Positions 28,330 to 63,873 of a stretch of 64,000 nucleotides of DNA are shown one piece after another (the first letter of the stretch is position 1; every line of letters starts with the position of its first letter). The DNA comes from Mesostigma viride (taxonomy: Eukaryota > Streptophyta > Mesostigmatophyceae > Mesostigmatales > Mesostigmataceae). A model generated the notes under the pieces. The model did not search any database, was not told the DNA's origin, and saw only the letters and a program-made list of their open reading frames with translations. The stretch spans positions 62,001 through 126,000 of the forward strand of contig RPFO01000338.1 in the NCBI GenBank assembly GCA_009746045.1, written 5' to 3'. The position numbers were made by a program, and so were the translations under genes.

Positions 28330-29612
28330 GTCCCCACACCGCATTTCTTCGCTCTCTGTTCCTATGCAGAACAAGAAGAGGTGGAAGACCAATGTCCCGG
28401 CTCACACGCCAGCCCATGTGGGTAAGCCCCCTCCCCCAAAGCGGAAGGGGCGCTTTGGGGAGAAGTGTAGTGAGGATTTTGTAGACTAGATAGCACTAAC
28501 TTACTTACACCAGACCTGGCAATAAACAAGCATTGATGGGATGGACCCAGCGATACATAATGGGCGTGCATGCGTAAAAAATATACACTATGCATGGCCC
28601 AATGGGCATGCATTCAAATAATTACAAATGAAGGCCGCCATGAGAGCACTGAAGCTAAACCAGACCGGGCCACAATTAACCCTCCAGCACCAAAGTTCCA
28701 CTGCATCATGTAAGACAAGCCTGACATCCATCCATCCATCCATCCATCCATCCATCCATCCATCCATCCATCCATCCATCCATCCATCCATCCATCCATC
28801 CATCCATCCATCCATCCATCCATCCATCCATCCATCCATCCATCCATCCATCCATCCATCCATCCATCCATCCATCCATCCATCCATCCATCCATCCATC
28901 CATCCATCCATCCATCCATCCATCCATCCATCCATCCATCCATCCATCCATCCATCCATCCATCCATCCATCCATCCATCCATCCATCCATCCATCCATC
29001 CATCCATCCATCCATCCATCCATCCATCCATCCATCCATCCATCCATCCATCCATCCATCCATCCATCCATCCATCCATCCATCCATCCATCCATCCATC
29101 CATCCATCCATCCATCCATCCATCCATCCATCCATCCATCCATCCATCCATCCATCCATCCATCCATCCATCCATCCATCCATCCATCCATCCATCCATC
29201 CATCCATCCATCCATCCATCCATCCATCCATCCATCCATCCATCCATCCATCCATCCATCCATCCATCCATCCATCCATCCATCCATCCATCCATCCATC
29301 CATCCATCCATCCATCCATTGATCGGGGTATAGTCCTAGTACAGCCATGCTACGTCCTGGCTATGATGAGATTACTTGCCCACGCTCCTAGTGTTATGCC
29401 ATGCTCACATGGGTCTTATTGCACCCACAGATTGCCGGATCGTTAGCGTGTCCGTTTAGCTAGCGTTCCCGAATGCAGCTGTGGCATGCCTTAGGCATGA
29501 AGGAGACTGGGGGTCTCTGCCCTTTCTCCTGTTGTGCACACACAGGGATTAAAAGCACTTCGGTGCTCCGTGACTCCCCAACAGGAGCACGTGTTTAATT
29601 AATTAATCGGGG
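28330..29612 (+). mobile_element. LINE-C: 5'-truncated LINE with giant (CCAT)n in its 3' UTR
   Basis: It begins in the last about 50 codons of ORF2: 'RISSLSVPMQNKKRWKTN', 'GKPPPPKRKGRFGEK', TAG at 28487. This is homologous to the LINE-G C-terminus at 11200-11330. The 3' UTR holds the (CCAT)n array, then about 250 bases matching the D element 3' UTR (13200-13460, opposite strand), the terminal hairpin (GTGCTCC...GGAGCAC, 29571-29595) and a TTAATTAATTAAT tail. A second, diverged hairpin and tail (29617-29690) follows directly, as if C landed beside an older copy. Confidence 0.75.
28724..29319 (+). repeat. (CCAT)n microsatellite, about 596 bp (about 149 units)
   Basis: Essentially perfect tetranucleotide array. 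It gives open reading frames on both strands (SIHP or WMDG repeats) that are artefacts of the repeat. The same unit appears about 14 times in the 3' UTR of LINE-A (9891-9948), so it is a LINE component that has expanded. Confidence 0.98.
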
Positions 29613-36139: not shown

Positions 36140-36463
36140 CCGAGTACCGGGATCGTAAATTACCAACTCGTAAATTACTACCTCGCAAATTACTACCTCG
36201 TACCTTACTACCTCGTAAATTACTACCTCGTACATTACTACCTCGTACATTACTACCTCGTACATTACTACCTCGTAAATTACTACCTCGTAAATTACTA
36301 CCTCGTAAATTACGACGTCGGATCTTACCTCGGATCTAACTCGTAGCTTACGAGAAAGATCCGAACTCTTATACAAACGGTATACGTAGTCTGTGCCGTA
36401 AATTACCACCTCGTAATTTACGCCTCGGATCATTTTTACTACCCTCGGACGAAAAGTATAGTG
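36140..36463 (-). repeat. Right sub-terminal repeats and TIR of CACTA-2
   Basis: TACTACCTCGTAAAT/TACTACCTCGTACAT units run about ten times from 36165 to 36310, followed by variants and the 55-bp TIR (36405-36463). The left end (25556-25720) has fewer, diverged units (acgaggtcttatcttactacc). These are probable transposase or accessory-protein binding sites. Confidence 0.8.
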
Positions 36464-36465
36464 AA

Positions 36466-37082
36466 AATGGTTGAGGAAGCTAGGCAGGGCCCACGGTTTC
36501 AACGTGGCAGACAACATATAGCCCTGACCAACTGGTTGAAGGTCTCTGCGGGGCTGGATAAGGCCACACGTGGATCTCTAAAGGTCATGTGTGCCCCACA
36601 CTCAACCCTCAAGGCCTACAAGGTCATAATCAAACAAGCACTCGAGGCAGAGGAGCTGTTTGAGGGTGGAGTGCCAGCAGTGAAGGCTACCCAGGCAGGT
36701 GGGCGTACCCAGGGGGCTCCAAACGTCTGAGGCTGACAGAAGCCAAGGAGGGCGTAGGGGCAACCACAACAAGCGGAAGGCCAATCATTCACCCGACCCT
36801 GACGGGAGGTCACACTCCAAGTCGGTGTTCAGGCGGGTGGGTGGTCAGCCCAAGCAGGGCAACGCGTCTGACAACGGGGGCAGTGGCCAGGGCAAGTCAA
36901 AGATCCAATGCTACCTGTGCAAGGGGTGGGGGCACATCAAGAAGGAGTGTCCCAGCTTCAAGAAGACCCAGGGCCAGGGCAGCAACAAGAATAACAACAA
37001 CAACAACAACAAGAACAACAACAAGTCCCAGGCAGGCCAGCCTTCAAAGGGCAGTCAGCAAGAAGACAACAAGGAGCAGTGA
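36466..37082 (+). pseudogene. Element X gag, C-terminal part with zinc knuckle
   Basis: The frame continues from before CACTA-2 ('MVEEARQGPRFQRGRQ', 'LEAEELFEGG'). After a frameshift near 36710 it gives a Lys/Arg/Asn-rich nucleocapsid with 'CYLCKGWGHIKKEC' (C-x2-C-x4-H-x4-C, 36911-36952) and a (AAC)n-encoded Asn run, ending at a TGA at 37080. It binds genomic RNA in active relatives. Confidence 0.8.
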
Positions 37083-37222
37083 CTGTCTGAGGCAACCCCT
37101 ACACACCTTAATTCACCCAAGGGGGAGGCCAGGTGCTCCAATGCAGATTTTATATCTGGGCAACAAGAGGGTGATCTCCAGGTTCAGGTGGCCCCAGGTC
37201 ACCTGGAGAGGTACAGGTTCCT

Positions 37223-38400
37223 ATGAAGACGTCCTTGACAGCTGGTGCAGCTGTAAGAATGTCTGACCCCATGCATCCTCGTGCTGGGCACGAGGGTGGA
37301 CCTCTCATTTTGAGAGAAACCAATGTACAACCACAGAGGGGTGTGAAGGCCTCTGGTGGTATGCATGTGGTCCCTGCTGGCGGTCCAGGTGTTGGGCATG
37401 AGCAGGGTGACTCAGGCTCTGAGTCAGAACAGGATGGAAGTCAGCATGGTGATGCTGGACAACCTGACAGCACAGTCCTGACTGTGCCAGGGACTGCTTC
37501 CTCTGTGTACCAGGAGTTGGGTGCCCGAATCCACAACATGTTTGGGCATGCCACTTCTCTGTCAAACAACTTTGCCTTCCGTATGGGCAGGGCACCCCTT
37601 CTTAAGGCGTGTCAGCAAGCTGCCTCACGGTGTAAGTGCCAGTTGTCCTCCAACAAGCCCAGGAAATCACATGCCAAAGCTCTACCTCAGAGCATTGGTG
37701 ATCTGCAGTGTGATATCCAACACATCAGGGGCATGCAACTGTTGGTGTGCGTGGACAGGTACACAAATACAAGGTGCTGGAGCATTTACCTTCTATGAAG
37801 AACAGGTACTTGCTGGCTGCCCTGCAGAATGTAAGAGCCAAGTTTCCTACCACAAGGATCCAGGTGGACATGCAGTTTCAGCATCTCAAGGGTGATCCAC
37901 CCTTCCTGAGTTGCTGGTTACACCTAGGGAGGCTCATGGGCAGCAGGGTGCTATAGAGAGGGCAATCCAGGAGGTCAAGAAATTGATCATCTCTGAAGAC
38001 TGGGTACCCTTGTCTGCACCTGCACTTGTCAGGAGTGCATGGCTGAGGAACGTGGAGCAGCAGCTGAACAGCAGGGTTAACTTCTACTATGATGGAGTTG
38101 CTGTCAGCCCAATGGGTCTATATCATGGCCTGTGCCCACCACATGTGCTGGAGGGCTGGAAACATGCTGCACATGTCACCTTTGCCAAGCTGAGGGAGAA
38201 GGACCGGGGTTGGAAGATGCTGGAGCCACAAGTGGGTCAGAAGGTCCTAGCTTGGAAGGAACCTAGCCTTTATGGCAAACGTGGTAGCTGGAGTCCTGGG
38301 GTGGTTACCCAGGTTGATGAAGCTAGCCACGCATGCTTGGTCAGCATGGAGGACGAACCAAAGCATGTGCACCGGCTGAGTTGGTCATATGTCAAGCCTA
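37223..38400 (+). pseudogene. Element X integrase
   Basis: Domains in order: HHCC-type zinc region ('HNMFGH' at 37532-37549, then a Cys-rich 'CQQAASRCKC'), the catalytic core with Asp at 37711 ('CDIQ'), Asp at 37867 ('VDMQFQ') and Glu at 37956 ('AIERAIQE'), and a C-terminal domain ('WKEPSLYGKRGSWSPGVV'). Frameshifts occur near 37770 and 37900. Just upstream, 37225-37260 reads 'LTAGAAVRMSD', resembling the copia protease site LDSGAS.HMT but with its Asp missing. Confidence 0.8.
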
Positions 38401-38559
38401 ACCTGATGAATGAGGGCAGTCAGGCACAAGGCTCACAGGATCTGCAGGATTTTCAGGTCCCAAGTGACATCACTGACGCAACGACCACATCTGTTGCAGG
38501 GGAATCTGTCAGCCCTGGCCAGGTTGCAGAGGTACTTGTTGAACAGGCTGCAAGGTCAA

Positions 38560-38935
38560 CAGCTGGGGAGTCAACTGTCAAGCCCAAGGCTCTAACCAAG
38601 CCCAGGGGGACAAGTTTGGCTGGATTGATTGGGGCTCTACAAAGGGCCAAGAAGCAGCCCAAGGTAGCCAAGCTCAGGTGGCATGGCAATCTGGGGCTGG
38701 ACACTGCCTTAGAGGTAGACACTAATTCTCAGGTTTCCATCATTGGGACCAGAGCTGCAGCAGGGTACAGCATGACTGAACCCAGCTATCAGTTTGTGTC
38801 TGACTTCAGTGGCGGGGTACACGTGAAGGTACTGGGTGAGGTATCTATTCCTATCCTTGGACAGGACACTGCTTTTTGTGTCTTGGAGGGCTATCAGGAC
38901 CTGCTCTTCTGGGGCAGAATTTCCTATGCCAGGAT
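38560..38935 (+). pseudogene. Element X retropepsin-like domain between integrase and RT
   Basis: 'LDTALEVDTNSQVSIIG' (Asp-Thr-Asn at 38718-38726) aligns with the active-site strand of retropepsins (usually DTG/DSG followed by A-x-x-S/T-x-I/V). 'ALLGQNFL' about 60 codons later corresponds to the ILG.DFL strand. The domain comes after integrase and before RT, not in the standard copia place before integrase. A frameshift near 38900 separates the two motifs. The same domain, with the same Asn, is in V and Z. Activity is uncertain because the Gly is replaced. Confidence 0.6.
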
Positions 38936-40704
38936 GGGGTAGTGATCACGTCCTCTCTCCTGACTAAGGAAGGGGCTGGTCAGGTCCCACTGATTAATTT
39001 CAGGACCACTCACCTATCACGTGCAGTAACCAGGACGGTTAAGCGTGTGCAAGTGTGCCAGGGGCAGGAGCCCTTGGTTGATGACCTCATATTGCCAGCT
39101 GCTAGTCATCCAAGCAGTTTGGGCATTGGTCCTCACTCACTTGCTGGACACAGCCCTATCAACTACCAAGGCCTGGTGAAGCTCATGTCCTCTCCCATTA
39201 TGTGTCCCCAGGTCACACTGGGTCTGATTAAATCTGGGGAGGACTGGATCTCCAAGAAATGCGTGGAACCTGTCAATGACCTGCCTCCTGCACGACGTCT
39301 ACTCAAGCTCAAGTTTGTCATCAAGATGAAGGAGGTGGACGGGGTCAAGGTACCACATGTCAGGCCAGTGCTGAATGAGTTCAAGGGTACTGGTGAGTGC
39401 ACTGCTGAGGAGTTGTATACCCCTGGCATGCTGCATGACACTTGGAGGCTGCTGCTGTGTGTATTTCTAGGCCTTCTCAACAAGGGCTTGGACTATGGCT
39501 CAGTGGTGGTAGACTTCAAGAGGGCATTTCTGGAGGGGGATGCAGATGTGGCACAGGAAAAGTGGGAGGGCAAGACGCCTTTCTATGTCAGGGTGCCTGC
39601 TGTATGGAAAAGGGACATTCACACTGAGTTCCTTAAAATCCTCAAGGGCCTGGAGGGCCTGAGGTCAAGTCCAATAATCTGGAGGGAGACTCTCAACCGT
39701 TTCCTGAAGGAGCATTGCAACTTGAAGGTCTCTCCTGTAGACCCCTGTCTGTTTCTGGGGCAATGGGAAGGCCTACCAGTGTATGCTTCGCTGCACGGGG
39801 ATGACCTACATCTGATAGCTCCCACGTCGTGGCTTAAGGAGCTGATCTCCATCATTAAGTCCAAGTTTCCTCTGGGTAGGGAGCAATGGCAGGTGGAGAA
39901 TGAGCCTCTGCTGTTTGTGGGCATGGAGGCCACACTGGTGAAGAAGGGGGGGAGTGGCGTATGCTGCTGGTGGGGGGCAATGATTATCAAGAGACCCTCA
40001 TTAGCAAGCTTCCTCCAGTCATCACACAGGCACTGTGTCCCATGGTGAGGGGCATGGTTGCTTGGGTGGCAGGCATTTCCAGGCCAGACCTTATGGTCAT
40101 AGCCAGGTTGCCTGATGACATGCTGATGGAGCTAGGGTCTGCCAAGGTGGCTGATCAGGTCAGGGCTTCATCTGGCATTCTGTTGTCTGCAGTGGATTTA
40201 TCACAACCCATTTGCATGGAGCTGTATGTGGATAGCTCAATGGACAGCAGGCAGGTCTCCAAGGTCAGGGGCAGGGCTGCAGGGCTCTTTGTGCTCAGAC
40301 AGGAAGGCCTGGGGAGTTTGGTGAGCTGGTTTAGTCGCCTGCACAAACGGGTGGCTGTCAGCAGTGATGTGGCAGAATGCAGGGCTATTTGTGAAGGCAT
40401 TCACACAAGCCTTTATCTGAAGGAGTTGCTTCATCAGATGACTTCTAACACTCCTTGGCCACTTCAGGTTACCACTCTTCTAAAAACAGACTCCATGGGG
40501 ATGGTGCAGTTTGTGCACAGGCAGATGGCCAGAAGTAGGGACTTGGATTATCTCCTTCTTAAGGAATTGTCCTCCTTGGCCAATATTGAGCATATCCCTG
40601 GGGTTGACAATCCTGCTGATGCTTTGACCAAGCTAGTGCAGAAGGCAGCAGTGCAATACAAGGTTCTTCAGTCTCTGATGGACCCATCTCAGCAAGCTGT
40701 CTAA
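38936..40704 (+). pseudogene. Element X reverse transcriptase and RNase H
   Basis: Copia-type RT blocks: 'LKFVIKMKEVDG', 'HVRPVLNEFKGTG', the first catalytic Asp in 'VVVDFKRAFLEGD' (39512), 'LKGLEGLRSSPIIW', and the second box 'SLHGDDLHLIAP' (HGDD, 39794-39805) where copia elements usually have YVDD. RNase H: 'DSSMDSRQVSKVRG', 'VAVSSDVAECRAICEGI', 'LDYLLLKELSSL' and 'NPADALTK', ending at a TAA at 40702-40704. There are frameshifts near 38900 and 39955. It makes cDNA in active relatives. Confidence 0.85.
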
Positions 40705-43310: not shown

Positions 43311-43955
43311 TGTCGTTAGCTTCCGTGTCAGCAGCTAGGCGCAAAGCGACTGCCAGCAGTGCCCACGGGGAGCGAGGCATTGGCGTCGAGCAGCATAACC
43401 AAAAAGTGGCGGGCCGGAGTGACCCCCTCAAGGCTATGCAAAGACTCGAAGAACTCCTGGCGTTCCGACGCAGGTATAGACCACTATGGCGTGCATAGCC
43501 CACCCCCACCGTGTCAGAGATGGTGCTTAGCCCCGCCCCTCGACGGAGGTGAAATGTGCTACCATAAGGCGTGGTGTTAGAAACTTAAGCGTGCTGAGGC
43601 TAGCAACTGCCAACAGCGAACACAAAAGACCAACACCACCTTGGCCTGGCGTCCCACTTCCAGCGAAGTAGAAACGCCAACCGCCTGCAAGGCGGTTAGT
43701 GCTCACCGTGCCAAATGGCACCTGCATGGCGACGGTGCTCCTGCACGCCTAGAATGGATACACGATGTGCAATGCAAAATGCGACGAGCTCCTCTACCCG
43801 GCAGCTAATAATGGTCGTCATCTGCTAGCAATTTGCGTGTGTTGAAAGTGGCAAGGGCCAAGGATGCCTGCTGGCCCACCAGGGGAGAACGGCGATGGAT
43901 GATGGGGGTGGATGCGGCGGGGGGTGGAGGTGGGGGTGAAACGGAGGGGGGAAGG
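43311..43955 (-). pseudogene. LINE-G endonuclease N-terminal half
   Basis: Minus strand, three interleaved frames give 'LALATFNTRKLL', 'RVEELVAFCIAHRVSILGVQEHRR' (the N-R and E catalytic motifs of AP-type LINE endonuclease), 'GQGGVGLLCSLLA' and 'HFLVMLLDANASLP'. Together with 42282-42740 they complete the domain. Several frameshifts. The 43951-43955 bases GAAGG are the target duplication of element V. Confidence 0.75.
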
Positions 43956-44583
43956 AGTTAATATTGCCTGGCAAGCAATATTATTCTACTAAGCTACTTG
44001 GCTTGTAGAGATTCTACTTCCGGTTACTACAATCCAGAAACGGGTTCATTCTGATGAGTATTGCTCGAGATGTGAGCAAGATACTGTTCTACTACATTCT
44101 ACTTGGATTCGGTGATTCTACGGTGGTTCTTCAAGTGACGCGTGGCATACGGCGTCTTGTCACAGTGTACGATAGGACATTTAGTCTCCGACACTGCGGT
44201 CTATTCAATGCTATTGATTAGACGTAACAAATAGTGACAGGACTTGTGCGACAGGACACTGATGTGACTATTTATGGATAACGAGTCGAGATCTGCTGGT
44301 CCAGAGTGAAGGACAGCAATATTGTGAGATGATCTGTCCTATCAGTCATCTGGATGTGACTGTGTCACAATTAGTATATAACGAGCAGGACGCTGCCACT
44401 TGGTAGCACCACTTTCCCTGCACCTGTGTCCTCGCACCTTCGGCGACGGTTCTCACGTGCCTCGTGCATTCTGTGCTGGTAGCCATAACCAGCAACGTAA
44501 ACCTATTGATTAACATAACTACTTCCTCTGTAGATATTAATCAGTGCAGGCTGAACCACAGTTCAGCCACAGCTTCTTTAACT
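43956..44583 (+). repeat. 5' LTR of V, 628 bp
   Basis: TATA-like TATATAACG at 44375-44383. Just past the LTR end, AACTCG-aattacaag-CGAGTT can fold into a hairpin across the expected primer-binding region (44580-44601). No TGG start of a classical initiator-tRNA primer site is present. Confidence 0.9.
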
Positions 44584-46399
44584 CGAATTACAAGCGAGTT
44601 CGTAATCTACTGATTACGGCATTGATTTCTGGTGTCGTCAAAATTTACGGTGTTGTTCCATTATAATATGGGAACCACGCGTGAATTTCGTGAACCATCT
44701 CTGGAGGCGCGGTGGATCCTTCGTCAAGCCTCGATTTCAACGTCAGCGGAGCAGTTGTCGAATTTCTTATCTCGAAGGTCGTCGGCAAGCATCTACGTAC
44801 GAATCGGCCTGCAGCAGGATGCGCCATATATGAACGTTAAGTTGCGCGTGCAGTGGATTTCAGTTTTATGATCTGAATTTTACGGGAATGTTGTAGCGGA
44901 CTTTTGTATTCCGTTACTGGCCTGTTTTATGTGCACGGACTTCGCAATAAAAGCTTTGGATTTTATTGTTTCAAGGCCGGGATTTTGTGCTGCGAAACTG
45001 GGTTTTGGTTTCGTGAAAATATGTTGTAGTAATTACGTCGTATGCTATACGAAAAACGTAGTTACGAATATGGAGTCGGTGGGGCCTGGTCCGGATTTGT
45101 TGTGTCGCGCTTCTGCGAATGTAATACGAAGTTTGTTTCGTGCCAGAATTGCGCAGTTAGTTCAATATTTTATGTTGGCTGCTGCATGTGCGCAGTTGCG
45201 ATGGAAGCATTGATACGAAAAATTATATATAATTTCGTATGCAGCGGAATTAAGTGTTGTCACTACGACAACATTGGCACTGCTAGCAGGGCATGTCGGA
45301 TATTTGTCATATATATGTCGATGATGATTATACCAAAGTTTATGCTGTATAAATTCTCTTGTGCAGAACAAGCTCATGCTAATTAATGCATTGGCATTAT
45401 TAATGCTGCATGTTAATGACTTGTTTGCAAGGTCAATTTTGAAGGCGAAAGCGTGGCCGGGTCGGCAGCGAAGTCGCAGCAAGCGAACTGAATCGCTGAA
45501 GACAAATGAAGCGCTGATTGCGAGCGGCTGCGAGTGCTGAAGTGATCGGGCAACTGCGAAAGTCGCCAGCGATCTGGAAAGAGCACGAGTATCGCTGTCA
45601 AGAGCGGGAGAGAGCACAAATGTCGCAAGCGGCTGTCAGAATTTGTCGCCATCGACAATGAAGGTCTTCAAGGCAGCTGCTGAGCGTGTTGGGAGCGAAG
45701 GCACCAGTGAGCAGTCGCCCCGGGCGCGAGTGTCGCGAACGACTGAATGCTATAAGCAACAACAAGAGGAGTTACGGTTGATACCTTTGTTGCATGAAGT
45801 GCAGCCTGGCGTGAAGGCGCACTTGCAAGCAAGGTTGTGATTTATTTGATAATCACTTCAACAGGGTAGGTGCCCAGTGGGGAGCACCTGGATCTGCGGT
45901 CGACGCAGGGTAACATGTTATTTCTGCCATGCAAACAGGGTCATATTGCCCTCTTTGGCATTGGCAAGTGAACCGAGGTGGGTATATTAATTTAACCCAA
46001 CCTGACGGATTCTGCCTTCCCTGGGCTTGCTAGGGTCCGCCAGGGAGGGGGCTAAGAGTGACCCCCCCATTACTCTGGATGAAGTTAATTTGCTCCCTGC
46101 ACTGTCAGGTTGAGGGTACATCCATGGAGGAAGAACACAATGGGGTAGTGACTGGGTCTTCCCACGTCACCATGGTGAAAGCAGTTACCACAAGGCAACA
46201 ACGTTCCCACAAGGCTCTTGGAGGTAGTTTGCGTACTCCTTCAATGTTGGAGGGTGGAAGTCCTGCCTTAGGGCAGGAAGCTCCTTTAGAGGAGGAGGAT
46301 GAGGCTGATGGCCTGAATGATGCAATGGGGAGCAAGTTATTATATATTTATAATAACTGAGCATGGTTGTAAGTGATAGTGCTGATCAAAGCACATCAC
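44584..46399 (+). pseudogene. V leader and decayed gag region
   Basis: Only short frames survive (44632-44871, 45643-45840, 46058-46360). A trace of a gag zinc knuckle (CYFC, then QGHI in another frame) is readable around 45918-45955. No intact gag can be assembled by eye. The recent LTRs contrast with this decay, suggesting that gag was supplied by another copy. Confidence 0.5.
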
Positions 46400-47969
46400 C
46401 TAAGCAGTAAAGCAGGTTGCTGAGGCTTGTTCCTGTAGGCTGGTTGCTCTCAAGCCTAAGAAGTCTCATGTCAGACAACCTGTGTTGCAGCCTGGATATG
46501 TGCAATGTGATATCCAAGAAATCAGGAAACTGATTTTGTTGGTTGGTGTTGACAGATACACCAAGTACAAGGTGCTGGAGCTGTTGCAAGACAAATCTAA
46601 GCCATGTTTGGTGGCTGGGCTCCAGGCTATCAGATCCAGAATGAAACCAGTGATCCAGCTGCAGTGTGATTTAGAATTTGAGTGCTGCATGGGGCATGAA
46701 GACCTCCCTGAGTTATTTGTTGTACACAGGGAGTCCCATGGCAGTCAAGGCGTGGTGGAGAGGACAATCAGAGAGATCAAGACTATTTTGCTGACGGAGA
46801 AGAAGATTCCAAGATTGGTTCCAGCTATTATCAAGACGGCCTGGTTAAGGTCAGTTGAGGACAGATTGAATGTCAGGGCATCCATGTATGTTGGAGAGGT
46901 CCCTGTGACTCCATTATCATTGCATCTTCGGGAGCTCCCTACTGAGGTTGAGCAAGCCTGGAAAGATAGCCTTATGTTCAAGTTTGCCAAGTTGAGGCAG
47001 AAAGACAAGGGCTGGAGTGTTCTGAAACCTGTTGTTGGCCAGAGGGTAATTGTGTGGAAAGAGCCCAAGCTTGCAGGCAAGCGTGGTAGCTGGCACCCTG
47101 GAGTAGTGACCAGGGTGGAACTAGCTGGGCACAAGTGCTGGGTGAAGATGGAGGATCCTCCCCAGAATGTGCACCGTCTGTCGTGGTCATATGTACGTCT
47201 AAGGGGTGCTGAAGCAGAGGCAGTAACTCCTGATGTGACAACCTTGCCAGTTGGTCATGACGTCATCCCTGATCATCACGTTCCGGCTGGAAGTAATCCC
47301 CGGGTAAGTCCTGGCCAGACCCCTGGACCGGTTAACTTTCCAGATTTAGAGCAGGCAGATGTGGTCCCCTCTAGCCTCACTAAGCATAGAGGTGTGGGCC
47401 TGAAAGATGTGGTGCTGGCTATGCAAAAAGCCAAGCAAAAGCCTCGGGTGTCCAAGCTCAGCCAGTTGGGGGAGTCCGAGTGCACTGCACTAGAAGTAGA
47501 TACCAATGCAGAGGTCTCAATCATGGGGTCTCAGCATACAGGGCAGCGGCAGATTGGCGAGTCTAGCTGTTCCTGGGTGTCTGACTTTAGTGGCAGGGTT
47601 CATATGAAAGTGGTAGGAGAAATCATCTTGCCATTTATGGGTGTAGATGTTTCCTTCCTAGTGCTAGAAGATTACGATGGCCCTATCATTTTGGGTCAGA
47701 ATTTTCTTTGCACCCCTGGAGTTGTGGTTGTATCTCATAGCCTTATTCGTAAGGGTTGGGGTAGCATTCCACTGACTAACTTCAGGGCCCTGAATCTTAA
47801 TTTTTTCTCTGTGAAAGCGATCAGGAATGTGCAGTGGCCTGAGGATCAGATTCCTGTGGCTTCCAGTCTTGTGATGCCAGCTGCTCTCATCCTAGCAGTA
47901 TTGGTATTACTAAGAGATCACTGGCTGCTCATTCTCCTCTTAGCTATGATCAGCTTGTCCAGGAAATGA
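46400..47969 (+). pseudogene. V integrase followed by retropepsin-like domain
   Basis: The HHCC tail 'ACSCRLVALKPKKSH' (46410-46470) leads into the core: Asp 46509 ('VQCDIQE'), Asp 46668 ('LQCDLEF') and Glu 46758 ('GVVERTIRE'). The C-terminal domain has 'WKEPKLAGKRGSWHPGVV'. After about 100 linker residues comes 'TALEVDTNAEVSIMG' (Asp-Thr-Asn, 47499-47507) and 'GPIILGQNFL' (about 47680-47710), a retropepsin-like fold. The frame shifts by one base near 47886, so the ORF ends 'SLSRK' while the RT frame opens at the overlapping ATGA (47966). Confidence 0.75.
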
Positions 47970-49483
47970 GTTCTCCTCTGATGTTTGAGGCCTGGAGGCT
48001 AGCATTTGCCAAGGCCCTAGAGGAGTGGTTGCAGTTTGACTGCTGTCAGCCTGTGAATGAAGTTCCTCCATACAGTACACGGTTGAAGCTCAGATTCGTC
48101 ATCAAGCGGAAGGAGGTGGAGGGGGTGTCTGTTCCCCATGTGCGTCCAGTTCTTAATGAATACCGTGGTACTGGGGATCTTCTGGGCGAGGAGTTGTATA
48201 CACCTGGGATGCTACATGATACATGGCGTATTTTATTGTGCCTGTATGTCGGTATGCTGAACCAGGGTGCTGATATGTCTTCAGTTCTGCTAGATTTCAA
48301 GAGAGCATTTCTGAAGGGTGATCCCAGTGTGGCTCAGCAGGTGTGGCATTGTGAAACTCCATTTCATGTGCCAGTTCCTGTAGCCTGGCAGGCAGAGCTC
48401 CAGTCTAGCTACCTGCTGATTCTGAAGGGTCTAGAAGGTCTCAGGTCCAGTCCCATCATTTGGAGGCTCACCTTGGAAGACTTCTTGACTAAGCACTGTG
48501 GGTTGAAGGTGTCATCTGTGGACCCATGTTTATTGCTGGGTAGGTGGCATGATTTACCTGTGTATGCTAGCCTGCATGGTGATGACTTGCACTTGATTGC
48601 TCCCACTAAGTGGTTGAGTCAGTTTGTGCCCATCATTAATGATGCATTTCCTTTGGGAAAAGAATTGTGGCAGAAGCCTGGAGAGGCTGTCACGTTCTGT
48701 GGAATGCAGGCTACATTGGTTCAGGAGGGGAGTCAGTGGCTGATTAAGCTGCAGGCGGGCAATGACTACAAGAGTACCATTCTTCAATCTGTTCCAGAGG
48801 TCATGACGTCATCCATTGCACCTGAGCTGAAAGGCAAGTTGGCCTGGTATGGCAGCATTTGTGGGCCTGACATGATGGTCCATAGCAGATCCCCTGATGA
48901 TGTGCTAATTCTGGAGGAGCCTTCCCAGATTATTGCACATGTTAACAAGTCTCCTGGTATTACTTTAGCTGGGATTGATTTGTCTTTGCCATTTTCCTTG
49001 GATATCTATGTTGATAGCTCCATGGATAGCAGGCAAGTTTCTAAGGTCAGAGGCAGGTCAGCTGGCTTGTTTGTGCTTCAGCAACATAGGCCTAGTCTTG
49101 TGGCCTGGTACAGTCGTCTTCAAAGAAGGGTTGCTGTGAGTTCAGATGTCTCTGAGTGCAGAGCCATTTGTGAAGGGATTCAGTCTAGTTTGTACATCAA
49201 GGAGCTGTTGCTAGCTATGGCTTCAGTGACTCCTCATACTCTTCAGCTGGAAACCTTGATCCTTTCAGATAACATGGGTATGGTCCAGTTTGTGCACAAG
49301 CAGTTGGCCAGAAGCAGAGATCTGGATTATCTCCTGTTGAAGGAGTTGGCAGGTCTGGTGGATATTCAACATCTTCCAGGTTCTGAGAATCCTGCTGATG
49401 CCTTGACCAAGTTGCCTCACAAGTCTGCTGAGCAATATAAGCTAGCTTCTTTACAAACTGATGAGCTCCTCTGTGTGAGTTGA
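47966..49483 (+). CDS. V reverse transcriptase and RNase H (open frame)
   Basis: Open frame of 505 residues. 'LKLRFVIKRKEVEG', 'HVRPVLNEYRGTG', the first catalytic Asp in 'LLDFKRAFLKGD' (48292) and the second box 'SLHGDDLHLIAP' (48575-48586), with His where Tyr/Phe is usual. RNase H: 'YVDSSMDSRQVSKVRGRS', 'VAVSSDVSECRAICEGI', 'ENPADALTKLPHK'. It is intact apart from the upstream frameshift. The ATG at 47966 lies inside the conserved pol reading (LVQEMSSP), so translation normally continues from integrase rather than starting here. Confidence 0.85.
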   Translation: MSSPLMFEAWRLAFAKALEEWLQFDCCQPVNEVPPYSTRLKLRFVIKRKEVEGVSVPHVRPVLNEYRGTGDLLGEELYTPGMLHDTWRILLCLYVGMLNQGADMSSVLLDFKRAFLKGDPSVAQQVWHCETPFHVPVPVAWQAELQSSYLLILKGLEGLRSSPIIWRLTLEDFLTKHCGLKVSSVDPCLLLGRWHDLPVYASLHGDDLHLIAPTKWLSQFVPIINDAFPLGKELWQKPGEAVTFCGMQATLVQEGSQWLIKLQAGNDYKSTILQSVPEVMTSSIAPELKGKLAWYGSICGPDMMVHSRSPDDVLILEEPSQIIAHVNKSPGITLAGIDLSLPFSLDIYVDSSMDSRQVSKVRGRSAGLFVLQQHRPSLVAWYSRLQRRVAVSSDVSECRAICEGIQSSLYIKELLLAMASVTPHTLQLETLILSDNMGMVQFVHKQLARSRDLDYLLLKELAGLVDIQHLPGSENPADALTKLPHKSAEQYKLASLQTDELLCVS

Positions 49484-50261: not shown

Positions 50262-50889
50262 AGTTAATATTGCCTGGCAAGCAATATTATTCTACTAAGC
50301 TACTTGGCTTGTAGAGATTCTACTTCCGGTTACTACAATCCAGAAACGGGTTCATTCTGATGAGTATTGCTCGAGATGTGAGCAAGATACTGTTCTACTA
50401 CATTCTACTTGGATTCGGTGATTCTACGGTGGTTCTTCAAGTGACGCGTGGCATACGGCGTCTTGTCACAGTGTACGATAGGACATTTAGTCTCCGACAC
50501 TGCGGTCTATTCAATGCTATTGATTAGACGTAACAAATAGTGACAGGACTTGTGCGACAGGACACTGATGTGACTATTTATGGATAACGAGTCGAGATCT
50601 GCTGGTCCAGAGTGAAGGACAGCAATATTGTGAGATGATCTGTCCTATCAGTCATCTGGATGTGACTGTGTCACAATTAGTATATAACGAGCAGGACGCT
50701 GCCACTTGGTAGCACCACTTTCCCTGCACCTGTGTCCTCGCACCTTCGGCGACCGTTCTCACGTGCCTCGTGCATTCTGTGCTGGTAGCCATAACCAGCA
50801 ACGTAAACCTATTGATTAATATAACTACTTCCTCTGTAGATATTAATCAGTGCAGGCTGAACCACAGTTCAGCCACAGCTTCTTTAACT
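50262..50889 (+). repeat. 3' LTR of V, 628 bp
   Basis: Same sequence as the 5' LTR except for the two substitutions noted for element V. It is followed by the GAAGG duplication. Confidence 0.92.
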
Positions 50890-51133
50890 GAAGGGAAGCG
50901 GTGGAAATAGTGCTTTTCATCGCATTGATTTTGTCCTTCAAGCGTAGGATGCGAGCCTGCCGCTTGCTCGGGGTATTCGGGGTTGGGGCTGATTGCACAA
51001 CGCCGAGGCGTATAGGTACAAACGTGTAATCTAGCAAACGTTGGGTTTTACGAATCTGACAGTTGACAGATGAGGTTGTAGCCCGAAATACCGGCACCAC
51101 CATGGCTTTCACCCGACGGTTAGGTCGAGGCAT
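50890..51133 (-). pseudogene. LINE-G ORF2 N-terminus
   Basis: ATG at 51133 on the minus strand: 'MPRPNRRVKAMVVPVFRA', then 'RQARILRLKDKINAMKST'. The frame runs across the V insertion site into the endonuclease start at about 43870. It lies about 50-80 bases 3' of the ORF1 end. Confidence 0.6.
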
Positions 51134-55902: not shown

Positions 55903-57968
55903 TCACTGATCAGAGCTTCCTGCAGCGTGAGTCTCCAGATGATTGGGCTCGACCTGAGTCCTTCCACTGAGGCCCTTCAGAATAACCAGGAAATGTTGAT
56001 GCAGCTCCAGCTTCCAGATAGCAGGCACCTCAACACAGTAAGGCTCATCCTGCTTCCATACCCTCCTGGCCACTTCTGGATCAGATTTTAAAAATGCCCT
56101 CTTGAAGTCCAGCAGCACTGATGACATAGCTGCTCCCCTGTTCAGCAACCCCACGTAGAGACATAGCAAAATTCTCCATGTGTCGTGTAACATCCCTGGA
56201 GTGTACAGCTCCTCTCCTGGCAGACTCCCCGTGCCGTGATACTCATTCAAGACAGGCCTGACATGGGGCACTGATACCTCATCCACAACCTTCCTCTTCA
56301 GCACAAATCTCAAAGCAAGCTTCCTTGATGCTGGGGGACGCCTGTCTGTTGGTGCAGCACACTCAAACTGCAACCACTCCTCCAATGCCTTGGAGAAGGC
56401 GAGCTTCCAAGCCTCAAACAAAGTAGGCGAGCTCATCTCTTGGACTAGCTGGTCATATGTCAAAGGAGAGTGTGCAGCAAGGCTCCTGTGAGTTATGCCA
56501 ATACTGCTGGGGTGCAACACAGCTGGAATCACCAAACTGGCTGCTGGGGGCACCTCCCCTTCATCCCATTTTACACCCTTGACCGGCTTGGCCCTGCAGC
56601 TGATTGGAAATGTTGTCCTGAAATTTTCTAGGGGATTCATCCCCCAGCCATCTCTTCTCAGAGCTGTAGCTCTGATAGAAATCCCAGGATTGCCCAGAAA
56701 ATTCTGACCCAAAATCACAGGGCCATCATAGTCCTCTAGGACAAGGAAGGTCACATCCACACCCATGACAGGGGATGCAGTAACCTCTCCCAACACCCTT
56801 AGATGCGTCCTACCACTGAAATCAGACACCCAGGGGCAACTTGGTTCTCCGACCAGCAGTTCTCCTGTATGCTGAGGTCCCATGACAGAAACCTGTGCAT
56901 TGGTATCTATTTCCATGGCAGCTACCTCAGGATCATCCAACTGGACAAGCTTGGACACCTTAGACTCCTTTTTGGCTCTTTGCAAAGCCTGTACAATATC
57001 TGATAGACGCACACCCCTAGGCCTGGTGTCGGGCCGTTCCGGAGGTGCAGCCTGTCCGCCTGCTTGCCCAACCACTTTATGTGAAGGTACCCCAGGGGCC
57101 GGGCCAGGGTCACCCTGAGGGCTCGATACAGCTGTAGCACCCTGATCAGGAAGTTCCACGTCACCCCCGCCTTGTACACCAACGGGCACCTGGAAGAGGC
57201 CTCCTTGATTACCTCCCCTTACACGGGGACGGATCTTTGACCAGGACAGACGGTGCACTGCTTGGGAGCCATCAATGGCCACCCAGCACTTATGGCCAGC
57301 GGCTTCTACTCGGGTCACCACCCCATCATGCCAGCTGCCACGTTTCCCTGGAAAGCTTGGCTCCTTCCACACAACAACCTGTTGTCCAACGTTAGGTTCT
57401 ATAGGACACTCCAGCCCTTGTCTTTCTGCCTCAGCTTGAGGAACTTGGCCTCTAGCTTCTCCTTCCATGCCTGCTCAGCATCAGCTGGCAGCATCCTGGT
57501 GTGCAGCATAAGAGGATTGATGGCAATGTCACCAAAGAACACTGAAGTCCTGAGGTTCAGCCTATCCTCCACAGAACGTAGCCATGCAGATGTCACAATG
57601 GCAGATGACGTCCTTGGAATCCTCTCCACCAGCAGCACAGTCTTGATCTCTTGGATGGCTCTCTCCACAACCCCTTTCTGGCCGTGGCTCTCCCTGGGTG
57701 TAATCAGCAACTCTGGAAATTCTGGCAGGTTCTCACAGCACTCAAACTGAATGTCACACTGCAGCAACTCCAACCCAGCTAGGGTACCTGCTCCTTGTCA
57801 ACTTCAGAGCAGCAATTAAGGTAGGCTTCTCCAAGTCAGGCAGGATCTCTAGGGTCTTGTACTTGGTATATCTGTCCACTGCCACCAGCAGCTTCAAACC
57901 CCTGATTCTCTGAATATCTACCTGCACATGGCCTGGCTGCAAAATAGGAGACCTGGCATGAGACTGCT
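55903..57968 (-). pseudogene. Z integrase core, retropepsin-like domain and RT N-terminal part
   Basis: Minus strand from 57968: 'HVQVDIQRIRG' and 'VDRYTKYKTLEIL'. After a frameshift near 57775: 'CDIQFECC', 'GVVERAIQEIK', 'WKEPSFPGKRGSWHDGVV'. Then 'AAMEIDTNAQVSVMG' (Asp-Thr-Asn, 56899-56907), 'GPVILGQNFL' and RT blocks 'LALRFVLKRKVVDE' and 'VLLDFKRAFLKSD'. The order integrase, protease-like, RT is seen here in one open frame of about 520 codons (57468-55903), so it is not an assembly of fragments. Confidence 0.85.
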
Positions 57969-58785
57969 TGTTAGGGATATAATATCCACCTGGCCACAAT
58001 GTATCCCAGCCTGATTTATTTCTTGTTGGATTTATTCCATATGGATTGGGAATTCGATAGCGTTGATAAGCTAGATGGATTGGGCTCAATGAGCTGATCA
58101 ATATTCATGTGCCATAGTCCTATACTTGGACATGGATGACTTGTAACCTGAGTCAGCCTAGTAGCATCACGTATTGGATTGACAAGTGGTGCTATGGCCT
58201 AGTGGACAAGTGTTTGGTCCATGAGCTGACAAGTGTTGAAAGCTCATGATGACACATGTTATGACTTACATGATGACAAGTGGGTAGACTCATTGCATGA
58301 CACTTGTCACTCCAAGGAGAAGAGATGTGTCACTTTATTAATCATGTTATGTGGCACACTATTATGTAGACACTTGGCATCTAGCTATTATGCCAGCTCA
58401 TTGGATCATGTCTAGAATGTTCTAGGAATGTTCTAAGAATATGCCAGGAATATTCCTGGAATATACTGAGAATATGCTGGGAATATGCTAGGAATATGCT
58501 AGGATGTTTCTACAAGCTTCTGTGATGATGTCATTGCTGATGTCATCCTTCCTAGCCTAAAAGGTATAAAAGGAAACTGCCCCCTAAGGGCAGGTACCTC
58601 CATTTCACCTCCATCAACCTCCATTCAAGCTCTTCTCCAACTATTATATTCTAATAAAGCCATTTATTCTTCCACGTAAATTGTCTTCAACCTCTCTTTC
58701 TTTCAGCACCTGCAAGGTGTGTGGGTAGCAAGGCCAAGCACAAGGCATTGTGTAAAACCCATTAGTTCCTCTCCCAATCCAAACA
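57969..58785 (+). repeat. 5' LTR of W
   Basis: TATA box TATAAAA at 58565-58571, AATAAA at about 58653 and a run of GGAATATGCTA-like units (58425-58505). These fit U3 repeats, promoter and poly(A) signal. Confidence 0.9.
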
Positions 58786-58868
58786 TGGTATCGGAGGTTT
58801 GTTACTGAGGAACAAGAAGACCACTGTGAACCCAGAGACATCCAGTTCCATTGGCGACTGAAGACACC

Positions 58869-60077
58869 ATGGCTACCAAGGAAGCGTGCTACAAGCAATT
58901 CCGGGCAACAAGCAAGTCCATCACAACGTTTGATGGGCGGTCTCTGAGGAAATGGGAAGAAATCAAGGCTGTGTTGAAGGCCTTAGCATCGGCCTATTGT
59001 GACCTGGTCAAGGTCCTAACTGGAGAGGAGGATTCGCTAAAGGAGGTCAAGACTGCGCTGCTGGAGGCGGAGGAGCTACTGCACGGAAGGCGTTCTGCTC
59101 AAGCAAAGAAGGAGGGCTCCCCTAACGGCCAGGTTTTCCACACTACTACGAAGAAAAGTGGAGGAAAGAGGCGGTGCAATTACTGCAAGAAGGCCGGGCA
59201 CGTGGACACCCAGTGCTGGGAGAAGCATCCGGAGCTGAAGCAAGAACGCAAGAACAAGGCAACGCGACGGAACCAAGCGAGAAAGGAGCACTCACCAGGT
59301 GCCAGCGAGGCGCGTATCACCGAGGAGGCTGCGGAGCGGTCCGGCTTCGTCTTCGCCACCATCGCCGAGTCGCCATCGCCGTCGGATGCTGCTGCACTCA
59401 CGCAGTATGAAAAGAAAGCACCGACCAGCTGGGTGCTGGATTCCGCAGCGAGCTGTCACATGACGCCATGCCCGTCGGACTTCGTGTGCCTGCACCCTCA
59501 TGACAGGGAAATCGCCGGCTCAGGCGGCCAACTGAAGGCGACAGCCATCGGGACTGTCAAACTGAAGCTGCCGGGTCAGGACGCGGACGTGCACCTCCAA
59601 AACGCGCTGCTCGTTCCCAGGCTGAGCACCCGACTTCTATCAGTCGGCCAGCTCGTCAAGGATGGCCACAAGGCGACCTCGCCCAGCGGGTTGCTGTGCT
59701 GGACAGCAGGCACTGCAGCATCGGACGAGGAACAACACCTACTTTTTGCCCGCGCACGGTGCGGACGCAGCGATGGACGCCATCCCAGAGCTGAAATCGT
59801 CGGCGACGAGCTTCAAGAACGACGCTGCCTGTCAAGGGCAGAAAATGGCGAGCAGCGAGCGCAGCATCTCACGTGCCTCGGGACACGCGGCGGAGTGGCT
59901 GGCCGTGGGCCTAACGGTCATACTGGCCATGCTTGCCCGTGTATGCGGGATCGGGGGCGGCCTACTGGGCATTACTCGCACACTGCGTGGCTTTATATAC
60001 TCTGCGCCGGCCCAGTGGAAGTTCACGCCAATTCGAGAAGTTTCCAGCGCAATGGAGAAGTCCGTGTCAGACGCTGA
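58869..60077 (+). CDS. W gag and protease
   Basis: I chose the ATG at 58869 (accATGg), the first after the primer-binding site. Gag with an acidic/basic capsid region is followed by a zinc knuckle 'CNYCKKAGHVDTQC' (C-x2-C-x4-H-x4-C, about 59175-59217), a Lys/Arg linker and a standard copia protease 'SWVLDSAASCHMTPC' (Asp-Ser-Ala, about 59430-59475) with 'LLVPRLSTRLLSVGQL'. The frame runs on to a stop at 60077, but past about 59690 it loses similarity to anything I know. W therefore has the usual gag-protease order, unlike X, V and Z. Confidence 0.75.
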   Translation: MATKEACYKQFRATSKSITTFDGRSLRKWEEIKAVLKALASAYCDLVKVLTGEEDSLKEVKTALLEAEELLHGRRSAQAKKEGSPNGQVFHTTTKKSGGKRRCNYCKKAGHVDTQCWEKHPELKQERKNKATRRNQARKEHSPGASEARITEEAAERSGFVFATIAESPSPSDAAALTQYEKKAPTSWVLDSAASCHMTPCPSDFVCLHPHDREIAGSGGQLKATAIGTVKLKLPGQDADVHLQNALLVPRLSTRLLSVGQLVKDGHKATSPSGLLCWTAGTAASDEEQHLLFARARCGRSDGRHPRAEIVGDELQERRCLSRAENGEQRAQHLTCLGTRGGVAGRGPNGHTGHACPCMRDRGRPTGHYSHTAWLYILCAGPVEVHANSRSFQRNGEVRVRR

Positions 60078-60519
60078 AGTACTTCCAGAAACCGCGGTCC
60101 AGAACAGCCCAGTGCAGGCGGAGCGCGTTGTCGCCGCCAGCATACCAGGTGCTAGTAACCCAAGTCCGGCGACCAGACCAAAGGCGCGGCGCTCGAACGC
60201 TGCCAGCCTAACTGAGGGGGAACAAATTCGTGGCGCGAGGGCGAAATCGACCAAGCTGCAAATTTTTCTAAGTCCTGGACTGCCAAGTCCGGTGCTGGCG
60301 CGAGGCCTCGAGCGAGCCGACAACGACGTGGACAGCGACCTGTCAGCCAAAGTGCGTCAAGCACCAACGGTCAACTCAGGTGCAAAATGCTGCCAAGGTA
60401 TCACGTCGGTCAGTTTACGGTGTTCGGCCAGGCCATGGCATTTGCAATGCGCTAGCTGCAACGACCCTTGGAAATTGTCGCCCAGGATGCACAGACCCCA
60501 CTTCTCAAGGTTGCCCTAA
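59662..60519 (+). CDS. W unknown ORF with a predicted membrane segment
   Basis: Open for 285 codons in the +1 frame relative to gag-protease, overlapping its end. It contains a hydrophobic segment 'WLAVGLTVILAMLARVCGIG' (about residues 80-100), then a Ser/Ala/Pro-rich soluble part. It stands where integrase and RT should be. It may be acquired host sequence or chance openness in GC-rich DNA; I recognise no family. Confidence 0.4.
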   Translation: MATRRPRPAGCCAGQQALQHRTRNNTYFLPAHGADAAMDAIPELKSSATSFKNDAACQGQKMASSERSISRASGHAAEWLAVGLTVILAMLARVCGIGGGLLGITRTLRGFIYSAPAQWKFTPIREVSSAMEKSVSDAEVLPETAVQNSPVQAERVVAASIPGASNPSPATRPKARRSNAASLTEGEQIRGARAKSTKLQIFLSPGLPSPVLARGLERADNDVDSDLSAKVRQAPTVNSGAKCCQGITSVSLRCSARPWHLQCASCNDPWKLSPRMHRPHFSRLP

Positions 60520-61655
60520 TGTTTTGTCTGTGGGAAATGAACTTGTATGTCGACTTTTGTGTCGTGTTTGCTGGAAATTGTGAGGCGCCGTAAGCCTGCG
60601 TTTTCTGGTTCTTTCTTTGTGTTCTTCCAGCAATTATGTGTTTATTTTGCCATGCGTTCAGTGGCATGGCCCACGCATTTTGGTATTGTTCCCACGAGAC
60701 GTTTTCTACGTACCTGGAGTGTATATCCAGAGTTTTTGCACGCTATTTGTGGCACTGTCTGCGGCGTAGTGAAGCGCCGTTGTATCGTCGTCTACGACTT
60801 GTTTTCGTAAGTTAAGTGCCTGTGACGCGTGTGTTATTTTGTTTTGTGCTGAGAGCATTGCTTGTATGCAAATGTTTACGTCCTTTGTGTCGAATTCGGC
60901 TGTGCATTTCGGCATAGCCTGTAATGTCGGACGTAATGTTTACTCTCGGGCATTGATTTGTGAATCGTGACGAAGTAATCGTTACTGTGTTCGCCTTTGT
61001 GGCGGTAATGTTTTGCACGTCCTGTTTTCTTTGCTATGAACGCGTTTATCTGTTATGGCCACTGTGTTTTGTGTTGAAGGTTGTATTGCACCTTGTTTGT
61101 GTGGCATTTGTTGCCATGTTTGTTTGCTCACCCCGTTTATTTGGCGTAAAACGTGATGTTGGTGTCATTTATTTGTGAGATGGCGTATGTTATGTTGCTC
61201 CGTGTGTGTACAGCACGTGTTGTTGCCGTTACCCTACCTCTATACCGTTTGGGTTAGCTCATAGGGACTTCTTTGTTGGCATGTGTTGCCGTATTATATG
61301 TGTGGGACTGTGTGCCCTATTGTGTCCATGGGCAGCCGCTTTGAGTGAGGGGGGAATGTAGCATCTAGAGCACTTTTTCCAACTAAGGGTTGGGTATCAG
61401 CCATCCAGGATGGGCAGCTAGTGCGTTGCTGCTATGGCAGGACACTCATTCGCGTTGCCGGGGGGGGATCAGTGGCGGTAGTGCGGCTCATGACCGCATG
61501 TTGGAGCTTCAAGCGTTTCACGAGGACGGCATCTTCATTTTCAGTTGCACCATGCTAGCAACTGGACGGCATGCTACGAGCATGTGGTTAAGGGGGGTGT
61601 TGAGATTCCACCTACCCAGTCATCTTTTGCATTGTGCCCATGTGGCTAAGGGGGG
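60520..61655 (+). other. W 3' non-coding region with repeated polypurine-TGT junctions
   Basis: No coding frame is supported. GGGGGG-purine runs followed by TGT occur three times: gaggggggaaTGTAGCATC (about 61349), taaggggggTGTTGAGATTCCACC (about 61590) and taaggggggTGTTAGGGATATT (61648, the true LTR junction). Confidence 0.5.
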
Positions 61656-62471
61656 TGTTAGGGATATTATATCCACCTGGCCACAATGTATCCCAGCCTG
61701 ATTTATTTCTTGTTGGATTTATTCCATATGGACTGGGAATTTGATAGCTTGATAAGCTAGATGGATTGGGCTCAATGAGCTGATCAATATTCATGTGCCA
61801 TAGTCCTATACTTGGACATGGATGACTTGTAACCTGAGTCAGCCTAGTAGCATCACGTATTTGATTGACAAGTGGTGCTATGGCCTATTGGACAAGTGTT
61901 TGGTCCATGAGCTGACAAGTGTTGGAAGCTCATGATGACACATGTTATGACTTACATGATGACAAGTGGGTAGACTCATTGCATGACACTTGTCACTCCA
62001 AGGAGAAGAGATGTGTCACTTTATTAATCATGTTATGTGGCACATTATTACGTAGACACTTGGCATCTAGCTATTATGCCAGCTCATTGGATCATGTCTA
62101 GAATGTTCTAGGAATGTTCTAAGAATATGCCAGGAATATTCCTGGAATATACTGAGAATATGCTGGGAATATGCTAGGAATATGCTAGGATGTTTCTACA
62201 AGCTTCTGTGATGATGTCATTGCTGATGTCATCCTTCCTAGCCTAAAAGGTATAAAAGGAAACTGCCCCCTAAGGGCAGGTACCTCCATTCACCTCCATC
62301 AACCTCCATTCAAGCTCTTCTCCAACTATTATATTCTAATAAAGCCATTTATTCTTCCACGTTAATTGTCTTCAACCTCTCTTTCTTTCAGCACCTGCAA
62401 GGTGTGTGGGTAGCAAGGCCAAGCACAAGGCATTGTGTAAAACCCATTAGTTTCCTCTCCCAATCCAAACA
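61656..62471 (+). repeat. 3' LTR of W
   Basis: Near-identical to 57969-58785, followed by the CTGCT duplication. Confidence 0.92.
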
Positions 62472-62990
62472 CTGCTTGGGCTTTCTAGCAACTAGCCTGC
62501 ACTTGCAAGCTTGAGCAACCTGTTGGCAGATGGAGTACAACTCACTTCCTCCCAGCCGTCTAGCAACTTGCAAAGACTGAGCTGCATGGCCAAACATGGT
62601 ATGCAACCTTGAGGCAATGTCATACAAGAGAGAAAATCTTTTATTGTCATTATTAGCACTCAAGGTATGTACAGATCCCTTATGTACAGGAGGCACCAGG
62701 GTCGTGCCTGTCAGACTGTCTCCAGCCCTATCCTCATCCTGACCATCCTGTGCCAGTCCTGCACGGTCAGAATGCTTCTGAGATCCACCTGGGTCCACAG
62801 CACCAGGTCCTACCTCAGGCTCAGCACCGCCATGGCGGGCACGTTGGCGAGTAACCACTGCAGCTACAGCTGGCATACTCTCTGTGGTAACCAAGCTTGC
62901 CCCATCGTGTCCAATAGGCTCTGTCACTAGAGCATGGGGCTGCCCCTCACTGCCGTCACTAGCAGCTACATTACACACCCCTGGGGGCAC
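62472..62990 (-). pseudogene. Z spacer and integrase zinc region
   Basis: Minus strand: a Gly/Pro/Ala-rich spacer, then 'ASRLHTMFGHAAQSL' and 'ICQQVAQACKCRLVARKPKQ' (HHCC region). This runs in frame into 57968 across W. No protease active-site motif is seen between gag and this region. Confidence 0.75.
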
Positions 62991-63019
62991 CCTCCAGGGT
63001 TCAGGGATGTGTGCAGGCT

Positions 63020-63873
63020 CAAGTCAATGATCAACAGCCTTGCCCTTGCCCTTATCCTGGGATGGACCAGCCTTCTCCTTGCTGCCACCCTGAGCTGGCT
63101 TGCTCTGACCTTCCTGCCTCAGGTACGAGGGACACTCATTCCTGAAGTGACCCTTCCCTTGGCAGAAATAATAACATTCCACCTGACTGATGTCCCGTGA
63201 GGTCCCACTGCTGGGCCCAGCCTTGGGAGGACCACCCACCCTCTTGAAGTCAAACTGGGACTGTGGATGCCCCGACTTCGGAGGTGTCCCCCGTCCAGCC
63301 ATTCTGCCACGCCCCCTCCTGGACCTTCCTCGACCCCTAGACTGAGAGGTCTCAGGCCCCCTCGAGGACGCTGCATGGGCCCCCGTGGCCCGATCCCCTC
63401 ATGGACTTTACTGCAGGCTCAGCAGCCTCCTCGTCCCCTTGACGTGGGCGCTTACCACCTACATATACTTGCCGCTGAAACACTCATACAGCTGGTCCGT
63501 CATGGCAGCCCATGCAGCCATGATGGACTTGGCGCATGTGGATGGTCACGTTATCCATCGTGACAGGATCCAGCTGCAGCGACTTGAGAAAGTCGCCCAT
63601 GGCCAGATCCGGTCTGCAACGAAGAACCCTTTGGCCATGGCGTCCTCCCTCAGCTCAGCTTGACAAAGTCTTCAAAGGCGTGGACCCGCCACTAGCTGCC
63701 CCTTGATGGGCTTGTAGTCCAGGTACTCCTGTTTCAGGTGAGACCCATCTATGGTCCTCTTATCACTCAGGAACACCCTGAGTCGCGTCATAAACGCAGT
63801 CCAGGTATCCCCCGCGGTATGTCGCTCCCGGACGAACTTGAACAGCCTCCTTGCCGACTGCCTTATGTATAGG
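63020..63873 (-). pseudogene. Z gag with zinc knuckle
   Basis: Minus strand 'QSARRLFKFVRERHTAGDTW' near 63860-63790, 'DKRTIDGSHLKQEYLDYKPI' and, in another frame, 'FDFKRVGGPPKAGPSSG' and the knuckle 'CYYFCQGKGHFRNEC' (63180-63136), ending at 63024. Frame changes near 63660 and 63310. It is cut at 63874 by a CACTA-like end. Confidence 0.7.

Follow-up and report, generated by a model that had tools for sequence, protein, structure and literature searches.

A retropepsin-like domain between integrase and reverse transcriptase in copia-related retroelements of Mesostigma viride

The DNA analysed was a 64,000-nt stretch of the Mesostigma viride genome, called the window here. Three retroelement copies, X, V and Z, lie inside it and are referred to as the window copies. 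Their features, with window coordinates and strands, are as follows.

36684-37082, +: X, C-terminal part of gag with a CCHC knuckle
37175-37798, +: X, HHCC region, preceded by a linker that contains LTAGAAVRMSD
37896-38942, +: X, integrase and protease-like domain, DTN at 38718-38726
38840-40048, +: X, end of the protease-like domain (ILGQNFL frame) and reverse transcriptase (RT); PF07727 match, E 8.4e-7, 29.3 bits
39904-40704, +: X, end of RT and RNase H
43956-44583, +: V, 5′ LTR; the LTR pair is 99.5% identical over 634 aligned columns
44584-46403, +: V, 5′ region; it lacks the gag A frame that many other copies of the family have at this place, and it passes into a disrupted stretch ahead of integrase
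46404-47372, +: V, integrase with C-terminal GKRGSW domain, then a fast-evolving linker (from the open frame 46404-47969 and segment substitution rates)
47373-47798, +: V, retropepsin-like domain with flanks; DTN at 47499-47507, VSDFSG, ILGQNFL
47388-47885, +: block exchanged between V and V2, ends approximate (from sliding identity of L007 against L055)
47843-49483, +: V, RT (LHGDD) and RNase H (from the open frame, a weak PF07727 match of 15.7 bits and the relatives P0001-P0004)
50262-50889, +: V, 3′ LTR, pairing with the 5′ LTR
55906-57474, -: Z, integrase C-terminal domain, protease-like domain (DTN at 56899-56907) and N-terminal part of RT, in one frame
57399-57797, -: Z, integrase core
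57969-62471, +: nested LTR insertion splitting Z, with direct repeats at 57969-58785 and 61656-62471 (98.5%)
62472-63023, -: Z, pol start with linker and HHCC region, without a protease motif (compare the unbroken copy L093)
63024-63026, -: Z, in-frame TGA between gag and pol, followed by CTTGAG
63027-63398, -: Z, C-terminal part of gag with CCHC

Element V ends in AGTTAA...TTAACT and is flanked by a 5-bp target duplication, GAAGG, at 43951-43955 and 50890-50894. The interval 46400-49483, originally given for V, is only its back part, with the LTRs at 43956-44583 and 50262-50889. The integrase triad of V was read as QCDIQ, QCDLEFEC and VVER. In window X, ILGQNFL is reached only in the next reading frame. 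The pol-start open frame of Z continues into the nested LTR, to 62391, and the nested insertion has a copia gag-protease of the ordinary kind (WVLDSAASCHM ... LLS; Pol_BBD 2.2e-14). The window also holds a tandem array of a 15-base unit (36153-36358), a second tandem array with a frame of repeated DGWM codons (28591-29443) and, on the + strand, a 595-codon open frame whose first Met is followed by a signal-like hydrophobic stretch (7131-8915).

Relatives of the window copies were sought across the whole genome (439,911,974 bases, 2243 contigs). V, X and Z were members of high-copy families, and a fourth family, found with P0003 (a protein with a Mesvir1 name that matches this genome at 100% identity), has the same pol plan. 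The best candidates alone were scored, and the counts are therefore lower bounds: at least 88 rows for V, 80 for the fourth family, 116 for X and 82 for Z. As tallied by eye from the result tables, an open frame of 1197-1198 codons was present in 26 of the 88 V rows (five of the 88 being short second pieces), one of 1320 codons in 15 of the 80 fourth-family rows and one of 1196-1201 codons in 48 of the 82 Z rows. The 116 X rows mostly had 989 codons, and the longest X frame had 1197. The lineage appears to have been active recently.

As the original prediction had stated, DTN in each window copy follows the C-terminal region of integrase and precedes RT (from 47499 in V, 38718 in X and 56907 on the minus strand in Z). 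VSDFSG and ILGQNFL lie downstream of it. The same arrangement was found in unbroken copies. The domain stands within a single open pol frame in V (L007), V2 (L055), X (L092), Z (L093) and the fourth family (L022, L046, L053); the copies of L022 and L046 are represented a second time by L051 and L052, and L001 corresponds to the window V copy (W). The order read in L007, L055, L051-L053, L092 and L093 was linker, HHCC zinc finger, integrase, protease-like domain and start of RT, and RNase H follows RT where the locus extends that far (L007, L055, L022, L046). Because unbroken copies carry the domain in one pol frame, this order was not produced by the broken window copies.

The expectation that better-preserved relatives would have no intact protease upstream was borne out, with D[ST]G before integrase in none of seven unbroken frames from four families. 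The 104-144 residues upstream of HHCC lacked D[ST]G in all seven, and large hydrophobic residues made up 15-28% of this stretch versus 35-39% of the domain (six frames for the domain, L092 left out). D[ST]G[AST] was absent from three gag frames, and D[ST]G[AS] was found nowhere in the pol stretches examined. LTAGAAVRMSD of X had been proposed as the remnant of a protease site; the unbroken X copy has it too, also without Asp, and no counterpart was seen in V, Z or fourth-family frames; this reading is not supported. The domain is the sole protease candidate offered by the unbroken frames examined. The usual copia protease ahead of integrase is missing, and a protease-like domain sits directly before RT.

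The motif was compared among 61 fetched loci. DTNA was present in 46, DTDA in 9, DTNS in one and NTDA in one; DTG was present in none. Four loci had no motif: two (L054, L057) do not cover the region, and in the other two (L021, L042) it was not found. All 57 motif-bearing loci retain the Thr, and 56 of them retain the Asp; two of the 57 repeat copies counted before, and many are near-identical and do not represent independent events. Replacement of the loop Gly by Asn, as originally described, is true of the three window copies yet is not general, since a DTD loop, with Asp, occurs in nine of the 61 loci (8 distinct copies). The Gly following D-[ST] is normally near-invariant in retropepsins. 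Asn and Asp take Gly-like backbone shapes more readily than other residues, which may explain why just these two occur at the loop.

The domains of V, V2, X, Z and two fourth-family branches (one DTN, one DTD) are 37-82% identical in pairs. Seven of eight domain sequences have a spacing of 65-66 residues from D to ILG and end in ILG, the eighth being the truncated piece of window X; unbroken X reads LLG. All 12 gypsy-type proteases compared from the Mesostigma genome had a spacing of 71 residues. ILS is the usual ending of copia proteases, at the place of ILG in other types (PMC2642776), and the ordinary copia protease within the window has LLS. Because the domain has ILG and not ILS, replacement by a protease of another type is favoured over a plain move.

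Comparison with profiles gave weak matches of uneven reach. In a scan of 24,736 Pfam models, every domain match was under its curated cut-off. PF13975 was matched nearly end-to-end (12-14 to 91-92 of 92) by Z (E 0.04), L022 (0.15) and L053 (0.12), and was not matched by X (L092), V, L046 or L055. The best Pfam match of the V domain covered a 25-residue segment of DUF6898, with E 0.0018, also below cut-off. When a domain profile was aligned with the gypsy-type proteases, DTN fell on DTG and ILG on ILG over 93 columns; an earlier comparison that included truncated X had aligned 33 columns. For the 93-column alignment hhalign gave a P of 0.011, with a reported probability of only 3.7%. Column shuffles scored as high in 1 of 200 cases against the 12 gypsy-type proteases (7 of 600 in a second run) and in 15 of 200 against the window copia-type protease, a somewhat worse alignment, in a comparison made unequal by setting a 12-sequence profile against a single copia sequence. 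An HMM of the gypsy-type proteases of this genome scored the domains near or below zero. Per 1000 residue shuffles, 296 scored as high for V, 666 for Z, 257 for L019 and 252 for L055, so the HMM failed on these, and only 2 for window X, 10 for L022, 9 for L053 and 19 for L046, which it separated from shuffles. The domain profile matched none of the PDB proteases. AlphaFold models of the three window sequences, full and trimmed, had mean pLDDT of 36.4 and 45.8, values too low for the fold to be judged. Searches with the trimmed low-confidence model in Foldseek and VIA-align gave no credible fold and no retropepsin in the top rows; one aspartic peptidase (SO1698) stood there at rank 6 with a probability of 0.08, on a model too poor to give it weight.

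The domain is under purifying selection. Its dN/dS was 0.15-0.16 between V and V2 and 0.13 between L022 and L046, compared with 0.69 and 0.44 for the preceding linker. The domain core is 67% identical between V and Z and 47% between V and X, and the preceding linker 25% in both pairs; many dS values were saturated in the segment comparison of V, X and Z.

L007 (V) and L055 (V2) are 99-100% identical in integrase, RT and RNase H, with dS at most 0.05, and identity in the two linkers that precede the block is 95% and 91% (dS 0.03 and 0.07). The domain and the 50 codons after it, on the other hand, each reach only 73% identity, with dS of 0.99 and 0.53. The same picture was obtained with L056 in place of L055. 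At the DNA level the divergent block is bounded at about window positions 47388-47885. Because it sits between near-identical integrase and RT, the domain has passed between elements as a module. The simplest reading is that a protease cassette recombined between V subfamilies, perhaps by template switching. Many copies carry the V-type domain and many the V2-type, and in the samples gag was mostly the same for both.

The 5′ ends of the V family were also compared. In a sample of 23 rows, gag A was present in 12, each with a V-type domain (W and L001 being one copy), and the 5′ end of the three V2-type rows was without gag. A coupling of domain type with gag type was considered and rejected, since in a wider sample 19 of 20 further V2 copies carried gag A (84-99% over a 300-base sample) and one had the gag-less end. 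The gag-less 5′ region (window 44584-46403; L055:1-983) is common to V-type and V2-type copies. Some gag-less copies keep long pol frames (1198 codons in L055, 1191 in L056) and may rely on Gag supplied by others.

In the fourth family, gag and pol form one frame split by TGA CTA G at all three junctions (TGA at L051:2381-2383, L052:2292-2294 and L053:2503-2505). In Z they are split by TGA CTT G, both in the window copy (63024-63026, minus strand) and in L093 (707-709); this context recurred in 10 of 12 further Z copies, of the other two one having TGA TTG and one not being alignable. UGA CUA (G) is among the known readthrough contexts (PMC4973966). The TGA with CTAG or CTTG is a candidate stop-codon readthrough signal in two families. 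A UGA stop also parts gag and pol in Tca2 of Candida albicans (PMC2194720), whereas in Mesostigma the UGA is followed by CUA G or CUU G. V and X had no clear TGA-split gag/pol frame.

As in Ty1/copia, integrase is encoded before RT in the unbroken frames, and HHCC and DDE-type integrase motifs were read by eye. RVT_2 was matched above its cut-off of 31.6 bits by P0003 (48.0), and below it by X (29.3), V (15.7), P0002 (21.3) and P0004 (21.5); P0001 had no match. However, Ty1/copia has its protease between gag and integrase, whereas the Mesostigma families lack it and carry a protease-like domain after integrase, and the ending is usually ILS in Ty1/copia but ILG here. The RT motif of copia elements is usually YVDD. 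In the fetched loci the RT active site was HGDD (54 pattern hits), with YGDD once, and HGDD was invariant in a six-sequence alignment. Clan AA (PF13975, of Ty3/gypsy type) shares with the domain the DT(x)A loop, the ILG end, a similar spacing and, for some members, a weak end-to-end profile match. It differs in having Gly at the loop, where the Mesostigma domain has Asn or Asp, and in its flap motif, most commonly GANG-like (PMC2642776), in place of DFSG. A precedent for shuffled pol order is the Gmr1 lineage of Ty3/gypsy, with a copia-like integrase position (PMC2774666); there the integrase was displaced, while here a protease-like domain lies between integrase and RT of a copia-related element. 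Because the elements are copia-related by integrase position and RT profile, yet depart from that group in protease position and type, we file them, on sequence features, as a variant lineage beside Ty1/copia and not as plain members.

No description of this pol order was found in the open-licence PMC literature searched, as represented by its excerpts. V ORF1 and the Z domain had no protein relatives within the word and length limits of the search. An RT protein search gave four relatives (P0001-P0004), none extending to the protease-like domain, and the viral and prokaryote contigs scanned contained none. The RT fragments P0002 (Mesostigma) and P0004 (labelled Prorocentrum lima) are identical at 238 of 277 residues, a likeness due to either horizontal transfer or contamination. 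A dinoflagellate host for the window had also been considered; a spliced-leader comparison gave no match, and the idea was given up in favour of Mesostigma. In a Pfam scan of four pol stretches, the three from the fourth family, which end soon after the start of RT, gave no match at E up to 10, and that of V gave sub-threshold matches only (RVT_2, 13.3 bits). Pfam annotation thus largely overlooks these elements.

Several explanations of the domain were weighed. That scrambled or nested insertions in the window created a false order would be suggested by the broken state of the three window copies and the nested insertion in Z, but it is refuted by the same order in unbroken frames of other copies and is hardly credible. 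An unrelated all-beta domain, with DTN and ILG coincidental, would accommodate the sub-threshold or missing profile matches and the low-confidence structure models. Yet Z and two fourth-family members only 37-38% identical to Z match the same Pfam model nearly end-to-end, and DTN and ILG stay in register in the profile alignment; we regard coincidence as improbable and judge that the domain very probably has a retropepsin fold. The earlier proposal that the protease moved or was gained from a gypsy-like source stands as to type, in that a non-copia protease fits the ILG end and the somewhat better alignment with the gypsy profile; a gypsy-like origin is what we infer from these.

The main rival grants the retropepsin fold and takes the domain as non-catalytic, a folding, dimerising or substrate-docking module in elements that are processed by a host protease or need no processing. 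The loop Gly is replaced in 57 of 57 motif-bearing loci, and Asp stands for Asn in 9 loci (8 distinct copies), as if strict catalytic demand were absent. A scaffold, though, would not obviously need an Asp retained by 56, and a Thr retained by all, of these 57 loci, across domains down to 37% identity, nor does it fit easily with D[ST]G being found upstream of integrase in 0 of 7 frames and D[ST]G[AS] nowhere in the pol stretches examined. We consider non-catalytic reuse rather unlikely. An active enzyme is favoured because many near-identical copies exist and the unbroken frames hold only this protease candidate. We thus lean, by a modest degree of confidence, towards a copia-related lineage in which a non-copia retropepsin-like domain would serve as the element's own maturation protease with an unusual catalytic loop. 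The domain would dimerise within the Gag-Pol precursor and join two D-T-(N/D) loops, and the paired loops would cut the precursor, with Asn or Asp at the Gly position as an unusual catalytic variant.

Two rules are commonly taken as given: each LTR-element superfamily has its protease at a set position, and retropepsins have Gly in the DTG loop. Our tentative account of the whole, read from sequence comparison, is that a recently active copia-related lineage may have lost its protease and taken up a non-copia retropepsin that would cut with D-T-Asn/Asp and be traded as a cassette. With many near-identical copies breaking both rules, the catalytic needs of the loop become testable, and it is clear that a protease-like module is open to replacement and exchange.
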